A stretch of 64,000 bases of DNA from Geothrix edaphica (GTDB lineage Bacteria > Acidobacteriota > Holophagae > Holophagales > Holophagaceae): assembly GCF_030268045.1 (NCBI RefSeq), contig NZ_BSDC01000002.1, forward strand, positions 434,001-498,000. Direction: 5' to 3'. The notes under the pieces are model-generated. The model made no database searches, was not told the origin of the DNA, and saw only the letters and a list, made by a program, of their open reading frames with translations. The position numbers and the translations under genes are program-made. Below, piece by piece: positions 58,827 through 64,000 of this stretch (the stretch's first letter is position 1; the number at the start of each line of letters is the position of its first letter).

Positions 58827-59453
58827 ATGCGCCTCCGCTCACCCCTCCGTTTCCTCCTCCTCTGCGCCGGCCTGATGCCCGGGCTCCTGGCCGCAGATGG
58901 CCCGACCATCGACACGCCCCTGGTGTGGAAGCCGACGTCGAAGCTCCTGGAGGCCACGGGAACCCTCAATCTCACGCCCTTCGCCGCCAGGAAGATCGTC
59001 TTCCTGCCCATCACGGACACCCGCAAGGACAAGACCGTGATCGGCGAGAACCGGGAGAAGTCCTACACCCGGTACGTGAGCACCACGGATGATGTCCCGG
59101 CCTTCCTGACCAAGCAGCTGATCGAGCAGATGAAGGATCTCGGCCTTCCCGTCGTGGACAAGCCCGCCGAGGGCGGCGCCGTGGTCAGCTGCGAGCTGGT
59201 CCGGTTCTCCGTCATCGAGACGGGCACCTACCAGGGCGAGCTGAGGCTCATCATCCAGGTGCGGTCCGGCGACAAGGTCGTGTGGCGCGGCGTGGTGGCA
59301 GGCAAGGCCACGCGGTTCGGCCGCTCCTACAAGCTGGAGAATTACCACGAAGTGCTCAGCGACACCGTGATGGACGTCCTCACCCGCCTGCTGTCGGACG
59401 AGGTCTTCATGAGCGTGCTCGCCGGCAAGGCCATGGTCGTGGCCGTTCCCTAG
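58827..59453 (+). CDS. Exported protein of unknown function
   Basis: A 208-residue protein with a signal peptide (MRLRSPLRFLLLCAGLMPGLLAA) and AGGAG upstream. The mature part is alpha/beta (KIVFLPITDTRKDKTVIGENR, VSCELVRFSVIETGTYQGELRLII), with a distant look of YajG/curli-type secreted lipoproteins. There is no lipobox Cys. It lies just before the polyene-like cluster but is separated by its own start signals, so membership is uncertain. Confidence 0.7.
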   Translation: MRLRSPLRFLLLCAGLMPGLLAADGPTIDTPLVWKPTSKLLEATGTLNLTPFAARKIVFLPITDTRKDKTVIGENREKSYTRYVSTTDDVPAFLTKQLIEQMKDLGLPVVDKPAEGGAVVSCELVRFSVIETGTYQGELRLIIQVRSGDKVVWRGVVAGKATRFGRSYKLENYHEVLSDTVMDVLTRLLSDEVFMSVLAGKAMVVAVP

Positions 59454-59493: not shown

Positions 59494-60189
59494 ATGCCCC
59501 ACACCTTCACGATCCCCCTGCTTAGGGCCTCGATCTGGTCCCAGGAGGGTCCGGAGGTCCGGTCTCCGTTCCTGGACCGGGCCTCCGGCCCCCCGGACGT
59601 GGCCTACCTCGATCCCCTGATCCGCCGGCGCCTCAGCCCCCTGGGTCGGGCCATGCTGCACTGCGCCCACCGGGCCGCCGGCGACCGGGGACCGATGCCC
59701 TCGGTCTTCACCTCCCGGCACGGCGAGGCGGTCCGGACCGTGCCCGTGCTGGAGGATCTGGCCCAAGGACTGCTCCCCTCCCCCACGCAGTTCTCCATGA
59801 ACGTCCACAACGCCACCGCTGGCATCTGGTCCATCGCGCGGCGGGATCCCAGCCCCTCCAGCTCGCTGGCCGCCGGACCGGAGTCTTTCGCCTGGGGGCT
59901 GGTGGAAGCCCAGGCCATCCACGCGGCGGATCCTGGAAGGCCTGTCCTCTTCGTCCACGGAGACGCCCCTCTTCCGCCCCTGCTCGCCGACTTCGACGAG
60001 GCTCCGCGTCCGCTGCACGCGCTGGCCCTGCTGATCGGCCTCCCCGCGATCCACCACCTGATCCTGACCTGGTCGCCGGAAGACCGCCCGCCGGAAGTCG
60101 ACGGATCAAGGGAAGGCCCCGACGCCCTCGCCTTCGAGGTGCCCGGAGGGCCCTGGGTGACCGGCGCGTGGGCCTGGCGCGTGGCGTAG
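59494..60189 (+). CDS. Beta-ketoacyl synthase-like (chain-length-factor type) protein
   Basis: A 231-residue protein resembling the short ketoacyl-synthase N-terminal domain family found in aryl polyene clusters. PLIRRRLSPLGRAMLHCAHRAA, VFTSRHGEAVRT and FSMNVHNATAGIWSIA match, the last occupying the place of the KS active-site loop. No complete C-terminal KS half or Cys-His-His triad is present, so it likely pairs with a full KS encoded further right. It is first gene of a tight operon. Confidence 0.8.
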   Translation: MPHTFTIPLLRASIWSQEGPEVRSPFLDRASGPPDVAYLDPLIRRRLSPLGRAMLHCAHRAAGDRGPMPSVFTSRHGEAVRTVPVLEDLAQGLLPSPTQFSMNVHNATAGIWSIARRDPSPSSSLAAGPESFAWGLVEAQAIHAADPGRPVLFVHGDAPLPPLLADFDEAPRPLHALALLIGLPAIHHLILTWSPEDRPPEVDGSREGPDALAFEVPGGPWVTGAWAWRVA

Positions 60190-60193
60190 CCCC

Positions 60194-60970
60194 ATGCGCC
60201 GGATCATCAAGATCCCCGCCAGCGCCGTGGGATTCACGGCCCTGGGCGTGGGGGGAATCCTCTTCTCGCTGCTGGGCCTGCCCCTGCTGCGGCTGGGCCC
60301 CGGGGGTCCCGCCGCCCTCCAGCGCCGCACGCGCTGGGTCATCCACCGGTTCTTCAAGGGGATGGTCTGGTTCCTCTCCACGGCCGGGCTTTTCCGTCTC
60401 CGGACCGAGCGCCTGCCGGAACGCAGGGCCCTGGACGGCACCCTGATCCTGGCGACGCACCCTGGCTACCTCGATGTCGTCCTGCTGCTGGCCCTGCTGG
60501 AGCGGCTCACCTGCGTGGTGAAGGAGGGCATCTGGACCAACCCGCTGTTCGGCCGGGTGGTGCGGGCCGCGGGGTACATCCCCGCCCTGGGTCCCGAGTC
60601 CGTCCTCGAAGCCGGGACCCGGGCCCTGGAACGGGGCGAGGCCCTGCTCCTCTTCCCCGAGGGCACCCGGACGGATCCGCACCAGCCGCACGCCTTCCAC
60701 CGGGGGGCAGCCCACTTGGTCCTCCGGTCCAGGCCCCCCGTCCTGCCCCTCTTGCTCAGCTGCACTCCACCGCTGCTGGCCAAGGGTCACAGGTGGTTCG
60801 AGATCCCCCGGGATTCATGCGATTATTGCATTCGAGCCACTGAGCAGCTGGAGGTGCCCTGGTCGGACCTTGAGGGTCTACCGGTGCCTTTGGCCGCTCG
60901 AAAGCTGACCCGCTGGCTCGAAGGTCGCTTCAACCAGGAAACCACCCATGCAGGACATCACGCCGACTGA
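60194..60970 (+). CDS. 1-acylglycerol-3-phosphate acyltransferase-like protein
   Basis: A 258-residue PlsC-family acyltransferase with an N-terminal hydrophobic segment (ALGVGGILFSLLGLPLL). Motif I is HPGYLD (HX4D, near 89) and motif III is FPEGTRTDPH (near 155), both at family spacing. In polyene clusters such enzymes attach the acyl chain to a lipid or head group. It starts 4 bases after the ketoacyl synthase-like gene. Its 3' end overlaps the first acyl carrier protein by 23 bases. Confidence 0.87.
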   Translation: MRRIIKIPASAVGFTALGVGGILFSLLGLPLLRLGPGGPAALQRRTRWVIHRFFKGMVWFLSTAGLFRLRTERLPERRALDGTLILATHPGYLDVVLLLALLERLTCVVKEGIWTNPLFGRVVRAAGYIPALGPESVLEAGTRALERGEALLLFPEGTRTDPHQPHAFHRGAAHLVLRSRPPVLPLLLSCTPPLLAKGHRWFEIPRDSCDYCIRATEQLEVPWSDLEGLPVPLAARKLTRWLEGRFNQETTHAGHHAD

Positions 60971-61220
60971 GATCAAGCAGTTCATCGTCCGAACCCTTGA
61001 CCTCGAAGACATCCGGCCCGAAGAGATCGGCGACGAGCAGCCCTTGTTCAAGGATGGCCTCGGCCTCGACTCCATCGATGCCTTCGAGCTGGGATTGGCC
61101 CTCAAGAAGGCCTACAAGCTCAACCTCGAAAGCGAGGAGACCTCCACCTTCGCCCACCATTTCCGCACGGCCGCCAGCCTCGCGGCCTTCGTCTCGAGCC
61201 ACCGCCAGGTGACCATCTGA
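60948..61220 (+). CDS. Acyl carrier protein, first copy
   Basis: A 90-residue ACP with the phosphopantetheine site in GLDSIDAFEL (Ser42, usual DSL/DSI). Acidic helix II follows, then the C-terminal helix. AGGAAA precedes the ATG, which lies inside the 3' end of the acyltransferase gene. It is paired with a second ACP 17 bases later, the twin-ACP arrangement of aryl polyene clusters. Confidence 0.92.
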   Translation: MQDITPTEIKQFIVRTLDLEDIRPEEIGDEQPLFKDGLGLDSIDAFELGLALKKAYKLNLESEETSTFAHHFRTAASLAAFVSSHRQVTI

Positions 61221-61237
61221 ACTCCGGAGTACCCCCC

Positions 61238-61486
61238 ATGGTGATGACCGAGCAGGACATCCTCGTCAAGCTGCGCGAAGTCCTTTCCGATTCCTTCCAG
61301 CTCGATCCCGCCTCCATCCACCTCGACTCGCACCTGTTCAAGGATCTGGACCTGGACAGCATCGATGCCGTGGAGCTCGCCATCCAGCTCCAGGAGTTCA
61401 CGGGCCGCCGCGTGAGCGCCCAGGACTTCAAGGACGTGCGGACCGTGCGGGACGTGGTGGCGGCGATCCACAAGATGCTGTCGTGA
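61238..61486 (+). CDS. Acyl carrier protein, second copy
   Basis: An 82-residue ACP with DLDSIDAVEL (Ser41) and the typical C-terminal RTVRDVVAAI helix. The ATG at 61238 has GGAG 8 bases upstream; an in-frame ATG two codons later is possible. It differs clearly from the first ACP, so the two probably carry different intermediates. Overlaps the dehydratase gene by 4 bases. Confidence 0.92.
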   Translation: MVMTEQDILVKLREVLSDSFQLDPASIHLDSHLFKDLDLDSIDAVELAIQLQEFTGRRVSAQDFKDVRTVRDVVAAIHKMLS

Positions 61487-61830
61487 TCCCCTACCCCCAG
61501 GCGCTGAAGGCGCTGCCTTCCACCCCCGGGGGCTACTCGCTGCGCGTGGAACCCAGGCATCCGGCCTTCGACGGCCACTTCCCCGGCCAACCCATCCTCT
61601 CCGGCCTCATCCAGGTCGACTGGGCCGCCCGCCTGGGGCAGGACACCTTCGGCCCCCTGGGAACCTTCCAGGGCGTGGAGCACCTGAAGTTCCAGGCCCC
61701 CATCCGGCCGGACGAACCCCTGGAGCTGCACCTCGACTGGACGCCAGACGCACGGCAATTGCGGTTCCGGTACACGGGAAGCCAGGGACCGAAATCTGCG
61801 GGGATCCTCGTCTTCACGCCGGCCCCATGA
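61483..61830 (+). CDS. FabZ/ApeI-like hotdog 3-hydroxyacyl-ACP dehydratase
   Basis: A 115-residue hotdog protein with GTG start. The FabZ-like active-site block HPAFDGHFPGQPILSGLIQVDWA (split here) holds His32 and the gating loop. A second conserved block, VEHLKFQAPIRPDEPLEL, follows. It would dehydrate 3-hydroxyacyl-ACP to the trans-enoyl form so that conjugated double bonds accumulate. No enoyl reductase is in the visible part. Confidence 0.85.
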   Translation: MIPYPQALKALPSTPGGYSLRVEPRHPAFDGHFPGQPILSGLIQVDWAARLGQDTFGPLGTFQGVEHLKFQAPIRPDEPLELHLDWTPDARQLRFRYTGSQGPKSAGILVFTPAP

Positions 61831-63551
61831 CCTTCCGTCCCTGCCTCGTCGTGCCGGTGTACAACCCCGGGCCCGCCCTGGGCCGGACCCTCGACGCCCT
61901 CCTGGCCTGCGGGCATCCCCTCTTCATTCACGACGATGGCAGCGATGAGGCCACCCGGCGCCAGCTCGAGGCGGCGGCCGCGGCCCAGCCCGGCCTCCGG
62001 CTGTCCCGGTGGCCCGTGAACCGGGGCAAGGGCGCGGCCGTGGTGGAGGCCCTCCGCCGCGCCCGGGCCGAGGGCTTCACCCATGCCCTCCAGGTGGATG
62101 CGGACGGCCAGCACGATGCCGCCGCGGTCGCCCCGTTCCTGGTGCTCGGCGAGGCGCGGCCGGACGCCGTCATCGCCGGAGTGCCGGTCTACGATGCCTC
62201 CGTGCCCGCCGCCCGGAAATTCGGCCGCCGCTTCACCCATGCCTGGGTCTGGCTGGAGACCCTCTCCTTCGACATCGGGGACTCCCTCTGCGGCTTCCGG
62301 CTCTATCCCCTCGAAGCCGTGGGCCGGCTCCTCGCGCACACCACCCTGCCGGCCCGCATGGACTTCGACACGGCGGCCATCGTGCGCCTCCACTGGGCGG
62401 GGGTGCCGGTGGTGAACGCCCCGGTCCGGGTGGTCTATCCCGAGGACGGCGTCTCCCACTTCCACCTGGTCCGCGACAACCTGCGGCTGACGCGGATGCA
62501 CACCCGGCTGGTGCTGGGCATGCTCCTCCGCCTGCCGGTCCTGCTTGGGCGGCGCTTCCGGCGCGAGGCCCCCCGGGACCACCGGTGGACCAGGATCCGG
62601 GAGCGGGGCACGGCCCTCGGCCTGCGCACCGCCCACCTGATCTTCCGCCTGACGGGGGCACGCGGCCTCCGCTGGCTCACGGAGATCCTGGCCGCCTATT
62701 TCTTCCTGACGGGCCGCGCCGCGCGCCGGGCCTCGAGCCAGTACCTCGACCGCCTCTTCCGCCATGCGGGGCCCCTCCCGGACCTGCCCGTGAAACCCGG
62801 GCTCCGGGCCCAGTACCGGCACATCCGGACCTTCGCCCTCTCCTATGTGGACCGCTTCCTGGCCTGGATGGACGCCAGCGACGCCGAGCTGGTCTTCCCC
62901 GAAGAGCAGGCCTTCCAGGACCTCATCCGCTCGGGCCGCGGCGCCCTCTTCCTCAGCGCCCACCTGGGCCACCTGGACATGCTGCGGGGCCTCGGCGCCG
63001 CCCGCGGGATTCAAGGCCTGAACGCGGTGATCTACTCTGAGCACGTCATCCGGTTCCAGGAGCTCCTGGGGCGGATCAATCCGAACTACAACGCCAACCT
63101 GATCCATGTGGCGGAGGCCGGACCCGAGACCGCCCTGCTGCTGGAGGAGCGCATCGCCCGAGGGGAGAGCCTCTTCATCGTCGGAGACCGCCCCCCCGCC
63201 TCCGAGAATGGCCGCACCCTGGACATCCCCTTCCTGGGGCGGGACGCGCCGTTCCCCATCGGCCCCCTCTTCCTGGCGCACCTGCTCCAGTGCCCCGTCT
63301 ACCTCTTCTTCTGCATCAAGGACGGCCCCCGGTACCGGATCCACATGGAGCCCTTCGCCGAGCGCGTGGACCTGCCGCGGAAGGGGCGGGAGGTGGCCCT
63401 CCGCAGCTGGCTCGGGCGGTATGCCCAGGCCATCGAGGCGCGGTGCCGGGAGACGCCGTTCCAGTGGTTTAATTTCTATGACTTCTGGGGAGAGGCGGAG
63501 CCCCTTCCACTCCCGCCGATCGCACCGCCCGCCGGATCCCCCCGACCATGA
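61827..63551 (+). CDS. GT2 glycosyltransferase fused to LpxL-like acyltransferase
   Basis: A 574-residue two-domain protein. The N-terminal GT2 domain (about 1-230) has HDDGSDE and VDADGQHD (Asp91-Asp93). A membrane-type segment and a C-terminal lysophospholipid acyltransferase domain follow (about 330-560) with SAHLGHLDMLRGL (HX4D, His379-Asp384) and VGDRPPASE. This fusion is known from aryl polyene clusters, where it is thought to join the polyene to a sugar-lipid anchor. The exact substrates are unknown. Overlaps neighbours by 4 bases on both sides. Confidence 0.87.
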   Translation: MTFRPCLVVPVYNPGPALGRTLDALLACGHPLFIHDDGSDEATRRQLEAAAAAQPGLRLSRWPVNRGKGAAVVEALRRARAEGFTHALQVDADGQHDAAAVAPFLVLGEARPDAVIAGVPVYDASVPAARKFGRRFTHAWVWLETLSFDIGDSLCGFRLYPLEAVGRLLAHTTLPARMDFDTAAIVRLHWAGVPVVNAPVRVVYPEDGVSHFHLVRDNLRLTRMHTRLVLGMLLRLPVLLGRRFRREAPRDHRWTRIRERGTALGLRTAHLIFRLTGARGLRWLTEILAAYFFLTGRAARRASSQYLDRLFRHAGPLPDLPVKPGLRAQYRHIRTFALSYVDRFLAWMDASDAELVFPEEQAFQDLIRSGRGALFLSAHLGHLDMLRGLGAARGIQGLNAVIYSEHVIRFQELLGRINPNYNANLIHVAEAGPETALLLEERIARGESLFIVGDRPPASENGRTLDIPFLGRDAPFPIGPLFLAHLLQCPVYLFFCIKDGPRYRIHMEPFAERVDLPRKGREVALRSWLGRYAQAIEARCRETPFQWFNFYDFWGEAEPLPLPPIAPPAGSPRP

Positions 63552-63964
63552 CCTTCCTGCAGACTTCCGTGAGCCTGGAAATCCCCTTCCATGATGTGGA
63601 TTCGATGGGGGTCGTCTGGCATGGGCACTACCTGAAATATTTCGAGATCGCCCGCACCGCCCTCATGCGCCGCGCCGGTCTGGACGTGGCCGACATGCTG
63701 GCCAGCGGGTGCGCCTGGCCCGTGGTCACCTGCGAGGTGAAGTACATCCGCCCCCTCCGCTACGGTCAGCGGATCCTGGTGGAGGCCCGGCTCGAGGAGT
63801 ACGAGGCCCGCATCGGCATCGCCTACACCGTGCGCGACGAGGCCACCGGCGAGCGCCTCACCCGGGGCCGAACCCGGCAGCTGCCCGTCGATTCGGCCAC
63901 CGGGGAGCTCTGCCCGGGAACCCCCCTTGGCATGGTCGCCGCCATCGAGCGGGCCCTCCCATGA
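63548..63964 (+). CDS. 4HBT hotdog thioesterase (YbgC type)
   Basis: A 138-residue acyl-CoA/ACP thioesterase. PFHDVDSMGVVWHGHYLKYFE carries the catalytic Asp18 and the HGHY motif. CEVKYIRPLRYGQRILVEARL and the family C-terminus are present. In the cluster it would release or edit acyl-ACP intermediates. ATGA overlap with the glycosyltransferase-acyltransferase gene. Confidence 0.9.
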   Translation: MTFLQTSVSLEIPFHDVDSMGVVWHGHYLKYFEIARTALMRRAGLDVADMLASGCAWPVVTCEVKYIRPLRYGQRILVEARLEEYEARIGIAYTVRDEATGERLTRGRTRQLPVDSATGELCPGTPLGMVAAIERALP

Positions 63965-64000
63965 CGCCGGTCGCGCCCTGCCACCTCTCCGCCCTGGGTC
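63961..64000 (+). CDS. Start of a probable beta-ketoacyl-ACP synthase, cut by window edge
   Basis: ATG 63961 overlaps the thioesterase stop. Only 13 codons are visible (MTPVAPCHLSALG). The ending xHLSALG is how many ketoacyl synthases of polyene clusters begin, before the usual VCALG. This is the weakest of the cluster calls because almost nothing can be read. Confidence 0.4.
   Translation, partial: MTPVAPCHLSALG

Follow-up and report, generated by a model that had tools for sequence, protein, structure and literature searches.

Gene content of the locus

The right end of the analysed window, a 64,000-nucleotide stretch of the Geothrix edaphica genome, holds the beginning of a biosynthetic gene cluster whose enzymes resemble those of aryl polyene (APE) biosynthesis, and whose starter and export genes are the subject of this study. 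Products of the class are aryl polyene carboxylic acid lipids, yellow membrane pigments that absorb near 440-460 nm. Among bacterial gene cluster families, the APE clusters have been called the most widespread. The host, a member of the Holophagaceae, has a 3.16 Mb genome in six contigs that is 99% complete. A sequence-only reading of the window had proposed an APE-like cluster from eight closely spaced genes at its right edge, and gene calls and domain matches recover all eight in that order and spacing. The contig was extended to the right of the window, and its genes were called with a codon model that had been trained on window sequence; positions in the extended locus, L003, equal window positions minus 56000.

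The genes within the window lie on the forward strand. The first, apeC (59494-60189), encodes a half-size ketosynthase-like chain length factor (Ketoacyl-synt_2, E 3.8e-46) whose sole PDB matches are ApeC of Acinetobacter baumannii (7f28_A) and Xenorhabdus doucetiae (6qsp_B). It is followed by apeD (60194-60970), encoding a PlsC-family acyltransferase (Acyltransferase model, 62.4 bits; HPGYLD and FPEGTR motifs), and by genes for two acyl carrier proteins (ACPs). The first ACP is encoded by apeE (60948-61220; PRK09184 above cut-off) and has as its top PDB match an acyl carrier protein of 86 residues (9ls6, E 4.9e-19); in known systems, ApeE is the ACP loaded with the starter. The second is encoded by apeF (61238-61486; PP-binding and PRK05350 above cut-off). 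Downstream are apeI (61483-61830), for a hotdog dehydratase subunit (Pfam ApeI-like, 51.7 bits against a cut-off of 28.5; top PDB match 6qsr_A); apeJ (61827-63551), for a family 2 glycosyltransferase (GT2) fused to an LpxL-type acyltransferase (Glycos_transf_2, a C-terminal lauroyl acyltransferase model match and an HLGHLD motif); and apeK (63548-63964), for a 4HBT thioesterase (4HBT_2 and 4HBT). The catalytic ketosynthase gene apeO is represented in the window by its first bases (63961-64000) and is complete at L003:7961-9154 (PRK09185 above cut-off; top PDB match 6qsp_A, E 2e-104).

Beyond the window, the cluster continues with a dehydratase gene, apeP (L003:9151-9579; Pfam ApeP-like above cut-off, PDB match 6qsr_B), a ketoreductase gene, apeQ (L003:9576-10322; FabG2 model above cut-off), and a second ketosynthase gene, apeR (L003:10322-11551; best PDB matches 4ewg and 7f27). 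The structures closest to its product are ApeR of Paraburkholderia and A. baumannii, and the apeI and apeP products each match one of the chains in the solved ApeI-ApeP pair of X. doucetiae. Neighboring genes overlap by 4 nucleotides at the F-I, I-J, J-K, K-O, O-P and P-Q junctions, by 1 nucleotide at Q-R and by 23 at D-E, and given these tight overlaps, the unbroken run from apeC to apeR looks like one coupled operon. The same genes recur in the same order in related genomes, so the order is not due to chance. As the sequence-only reading had stated, neither a ligase nor an ammonia-lyase gene separates the second ACP from the dehydratase, apeF and apeI overlapping by 4 nucleotides.

To the right of apeR are genes for a fumarase-type lyase and an acyl-CoA carboxylase subunit, both also found in relatives without the cluster. 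The lyase (L003:11613-13472) is of the fumarase/aspartase type with an N-terminal cyclic-nucleotide-binding domain, and stays beside the carboxylase subunit in other genomes, cluster-free ones included.

Membership in the aryl polyene class

At the level of its predicted enzymes the cluster is of the APE type. It encodes the ApeO-ApeC pair of ketosynthase and half-size chain length factor, with 6qsp and 7f28 as closest solved structures and with the active-site Cys and conserved Arg pair retained, together with the ApeI/ApeP dehydratases, the ApeQ ketoreductase and two ACPs. The matches to the Pfam ApeI-like and ApeP-like models, and the APE enzymes found as best PDB relatives, bear out the class proposed from the window alone. 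Cavity residues of ApeO and ApeC are also retained (Ala, and the Phe205, Phe85 and Val89 equivalents). In ApeR, the aryl pocket pair Tyr135/Phe202 is identical in 8/8 compared clusters of the form described here (hereafter, stripped clusters) and in 47/47 others, as are the other cavity residues compared; Leu229 and a second cavity leucine are likewise retained in the stripped clusters. In A. baumannii ApeR, Tyr135 is important for activity and has been proposed to act with Phe202 in aryl stacking (PMC8358021). Two features of the class are lacking: there is no starter ligase ApeH, a 4-hydroxybenzoate (4-HBA)-ACP ligase, and both the MMPL/RND exporter ApeM and the LolA-like ApeL are absent from the cluster.

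Absence of starter and export genes

Loading by ApeH and MMPL/Lol export are treated as integral to the APE pathway. Loci were compared using the ApeJ protein as probe in named genomes, the reference clusters being those of the window and of E. coli CFT073; the comparison covers the 80 nearest of 555 loci, more distant clusters lying outside its scope. Outside the stripped group, ApeH is encoded in 77 of 78 APE loci, the contig of the remaining one ending short of that position, and ApeM in 75 of 78, the other three likewise being truncated. The window cluster and its stripped relatives contain no ApeG, ApeH, ammonia-lyase, ApeL, ApeM or ApeN within the cluster. This version occurs in nine Holophagaceae genomes, eight of which have the complete locus, with 11 genes. 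In most compared loci, apeJ and apeK are separated by ~1.6 kb. In the Holophagaceae relatives L211 and L212 the equivalent space ahead of apeK is occupied by an ammonia-lyase, and an ammonia-lyase probably fills it in the other loci too.

Hidden Markov model (HMM) profiles of ApeH (from 19 clusters) and ApeM (from 16) were run against 77 family genomes. True homologues score about 290 to 765 bits, fragmentary copies aside, and occur in genera g3, g7, g9 and g11. In the nine stripped-cluster genomes the best matches are partial and generic (~53 bits for ApeH, ~64 bits for ApeM), and no true ApeH or ApeM was found by this search; the genome-wide absence concerns these two proteins, the search for ApeL, ApeN and ApeG having covered the cluster. 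The earlier remark that starter genes are missing from the cluster is strengthened, as no ApeH homologue was found genome-wide.

The sequence-only reading had looked to the right flank for the rest of a canonical cluster. A ketosynthase, the ApeP dehydratase, a ketoreductase and a second ketosynthase are indeed encoded there; LolA, the MMPL exporter and the ligase are not. Among the ketoreductase, ketosynthase and exporter genes on which that reading had staked its case, only the exporter is wanting. The missing genes do not lie just past the window edge, as the cluster stops at apeR and gives way to genes common to cluster-less relatives, and relocation of the ligase or exporter elsewhere in the genome is ruled out for ApeH and ApeM by the HMM search. 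A single MMPL protein of 850 amino acids (C2:604264-606816) was considered as ApeM and rejected; in this genome, neither it nor the other MMPL matches correspond to the ApeM profile. Chorismate lyase UbiC is encoded in none of the 77 family genomes. A PF00221 ammonia-lyase is present, one single-copy gene across nearly the whole family; with this family-wide spread it is not linked to the cluster, and was dismissed as a separate aromatic supply.

Literature searches, largely without subscription papers, turned up no account of an APE cluster without a ligase, nor of APE in this group. The novelty of the locus lies in the absent genes, the starter ligase and the dedicated exporter among them.

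Distribution, phylogeny and selection

With the ApeJ probe, which misses sister clusters that have no ApeJ in place, the cluster was found in 9 of 77 family genomes, belonging to two genera, and nowhere else in a phylum sample of 396 genomes. In cluster-less congeners, genes for a transaldolase, a HIT hydrolase and the fumarase-type lyase adjoin, forming an empty site. Two further loci were not counted as stripped: L048, on a contig of low guanine-cytosine content that is possibly mis-binned, and L046, which has an orphan ApeJ. The latter gene (L046:9209-10831) is 56-58% identical to the window ApeJ and lies apart from any APE cluster, in a genome with 8% contamination.

The stripped clusters group together as a single clade in the ApeO tree (support 100/99), sister to Holophagaceae clusters that retain ligase, lyase and exporter, and nested among Pseudomonadota sequences. 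Rows L049 and L056 of this tree are one stripped, truncated copy left unlabelled, the source of two label changes. The simplest reading of the tree is that the starter and export genes were lost once, in this Holophagaceae lineage. Among the canonical-type clusters, those of L212, L213 and L214 (genus g9) have an additional ApeE-like ACP gene and divergent ketosynthase genes, inserted between apeR and apeQ and encoded on the other strand.

Across five pairs, each gene has a ratio of nonsynonymous to synonymous substitution rates (dN/dS) of 0.04-0.36, indicating purifying selection and therefore genes in use. These values bear on whether the cluster might be a decaying APE remnant whose product has been lost. 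Such decay would account for the genes missing relative to a full cluster and for the absence of the cluster from most of the genus, but all genes are intact and tightly coupled, the same set is kept in two genera, and dN/dS lies well below 1. Decay is thus very improbable and was rejected on the dN/dS values.

A co-travelling PqiC-like gene

Ahead of apeC on the same strand lies a gene (58827-59453; Lpp16) for a protein predicted to be secreted, probably to the periplasm, and to adopt a PqiC/DUF330-like fold; its match to PF03923 is sub-threshold (22.3 bits; cut-off 25). Homologues are present in all nine stripped-cluster genomes and in 2 of 68 other family genomes (Fisher p 3e-10, uncorrected for relatedness); in one genus g5 genome the gene stands at the opposite end of the cluster, beside the carboxylase gene. 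The left edge of the cluster is better placed at 58827, taking in this co-travelling gene. The two cluster-less genomes, L184 and L185, have a solitary homologue, likewise beside a HIT-family gene.

The AlphaFold model of Lpp16 has a predicted local distance difference test (pLDDT) score of 85. Its top structural match is XCC0632 (DUF330; VIA Z 14.5, Foldseek E 5.5e-8), and PqiC aligns with a Z score of 12.4. PqiC belongs to a putative system for phospholipid transport, of which it is the outer-membrane component (PMC10897342). None of 11 Lpp16 homologues has a lipobox, and an outer-membrane lipoprotein signal is lacking; a soluble periplasmic protein is therefore more likely. Profile comparison found no Lpp16 homologue in canonical APE loci, and Lpp16 was rejected as a hidden ApeN or ApeL (probabilities of 2.7% and 0.4%). 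The genome holds two MCE-domain loci, and Lpp16 may replace the ApeL/ApeM/ApeN transport route.

A probable reduced pathway and its starter

We favor, at a probability of about 0.7, a working reduced APE pathway in which the starter and transport steps are carried out by other proteins. This reading is based on gene content and homology, conserved catalytic and pocket residues, the lack of ApeH and ApeM in the genome, the single clade, purifying selection and the co-occurrence of the PqiC-like gene. An ancestor of this Holophagaceae lineage would have lost both its starter-supply genes (ammonia-lyase, ApeH) and those for transport across the envelope (ApeG, ApeL, ApeM, ApeN). Starter loading would fall to a general acyl-CoA or acyl-ACP synthetase whose gene lies outside the cluster. 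ApeO-ApeC and ApeR would elongate the ACP-bound starter with malonyl units, with ApeQ reducing and ApeI-ApeP dehydrating in each round to yield a conjugated polyene chain, and ApeK, ApeD and ApeJ would release the chain and couple it to a membrane lipid. Transport may then proceed via the PqiC-like protein, with a chromosomal MCE-type lipid system as its probable partner.

Some observations weigh against this pathway. Pigmentation in E. coli needs most of the core and transport genes (PMC8253772), and whatever a cluster lacking ApeH and ApeM produces might therefore bear no resemblance to a standard APE. The phyletic pattern gave no substitute ligase or transporter, and the gene for the PqiC-like protein is present in two genomes that lack the cluster.

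Within the reduced pathway, two starter routes were weighed, the probabilities of which overlap with that of the pathway itself. The retained aryl pocket of ApeR speaks for an aromatic starter, and the lack of the ligase against the usual one. The product may be a standard aryl polyene, its starter made and loaded in trans, for example by an Aas-type acyl-ACP ligase or an MbcS-like acyl-CoA synthetase acting on an aromatic acid. The genome encodes seven AMP-binding proteins, including a fusion of PlsC with an acyl-ACP ligase and an MbcS-like enzyme that matches benzoate-CoA ligase below threshold, and ApeE is retained along with the ApeR pocket. However, similar AMP-binding matches occur in members of the genus without the cluster, and are thus not tied to it, and no ligase in the genome resembles ApeH above generic adenylation-domain scores. 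We rate this route plausible, at somewhat under even odds.

The other route starts from acetyl or a fatty acyl group drawn from fatty acid synthesis, and the product would be a plain polyene fatty acyl lipid with no aromatic head. The lack of ApeH, of a cluster ammonia-lyase and, across the family, of UbiC would be in keeping with it, as would two of five group-specific substitutions at otherwise invariant sites (ApeE Leu46Phe, ApeC Ser103Asn, ApeO Glu245Ala, ApeQ Thr117Val and ApeD Asn88Thr). ApeE Leu46Phe is four residues past the phosphopantetheine serine, in helix II of ACP1, where 80/80 other ApeE proteins have Leu, and ApeC Ser103Asn is beside a cavity-lining valine, where 77/77 others have Ser; both changes are confined to the stripped group. 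Yet control clades have 0-11 such changes, a range that includes the five seen here, and a starter switch read from the substitutions was not taken as proof. ApeR also retains all compared aryl-pocket residues, with no group-specific change at its highly conserved positions. A non-aryl starter is rather unlikely, and the in-trans ligase stands slightly ahead. We are similarly doubtful of a rewired pathway, in which the polyene lipid would have another starter, perhaps a non-aromatic one, and the PqiC-like protein and an MCE-type system would replace the MMPL/Lol module.

Comparison with known systems

The PqiC/DUF330 lipoproteins of PqiABC lipid transport are alike to Lpp16 in predicted fold. 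In contrast to them, Lpp16 has no lipobox, shares about 6-12% sequence identity and is not adjoined by PqiA/PqiB-type genes. As a proposed partner of the cluster, it offers a concrete lead for the transport step.

The Pseudomonadota APE clusters (E. coli CFT073 c1186-c1204, X. doucetiae, A. baumannii and Paraburkholderia) share with the stripped cluster the order of ApeC, D, E, F, I, J, K, O, P, Q and R, including the APE-specific dehydratase pair and the ketosynthase/chain-length-factor pair. They differ in that the Holophagaceae stripped cluster is without ApeG, ApeH, ammonia-lyase, ApeL, ApeM and ApeN, and has the PqiC-like gene instead. A conserved, selected cluster without ApeH and export genes is a natural experiment on the minimal APE machine.

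The canonical-type Holophagaceae clusters (L211, L212 and L217) belong to the same family and to the sister group on the ApeO tree. They retain ApeH, ApeL, ApeM and ApeN (and, in L211 and L212, the ammonia-lyase) and are without ApeJ at its usual place, whereas the stripped version displays the reverse pattern. With these ligase- and exporter-bearing sisters in one family, starter choice and envelope transport can be put to a direct test by comparison.

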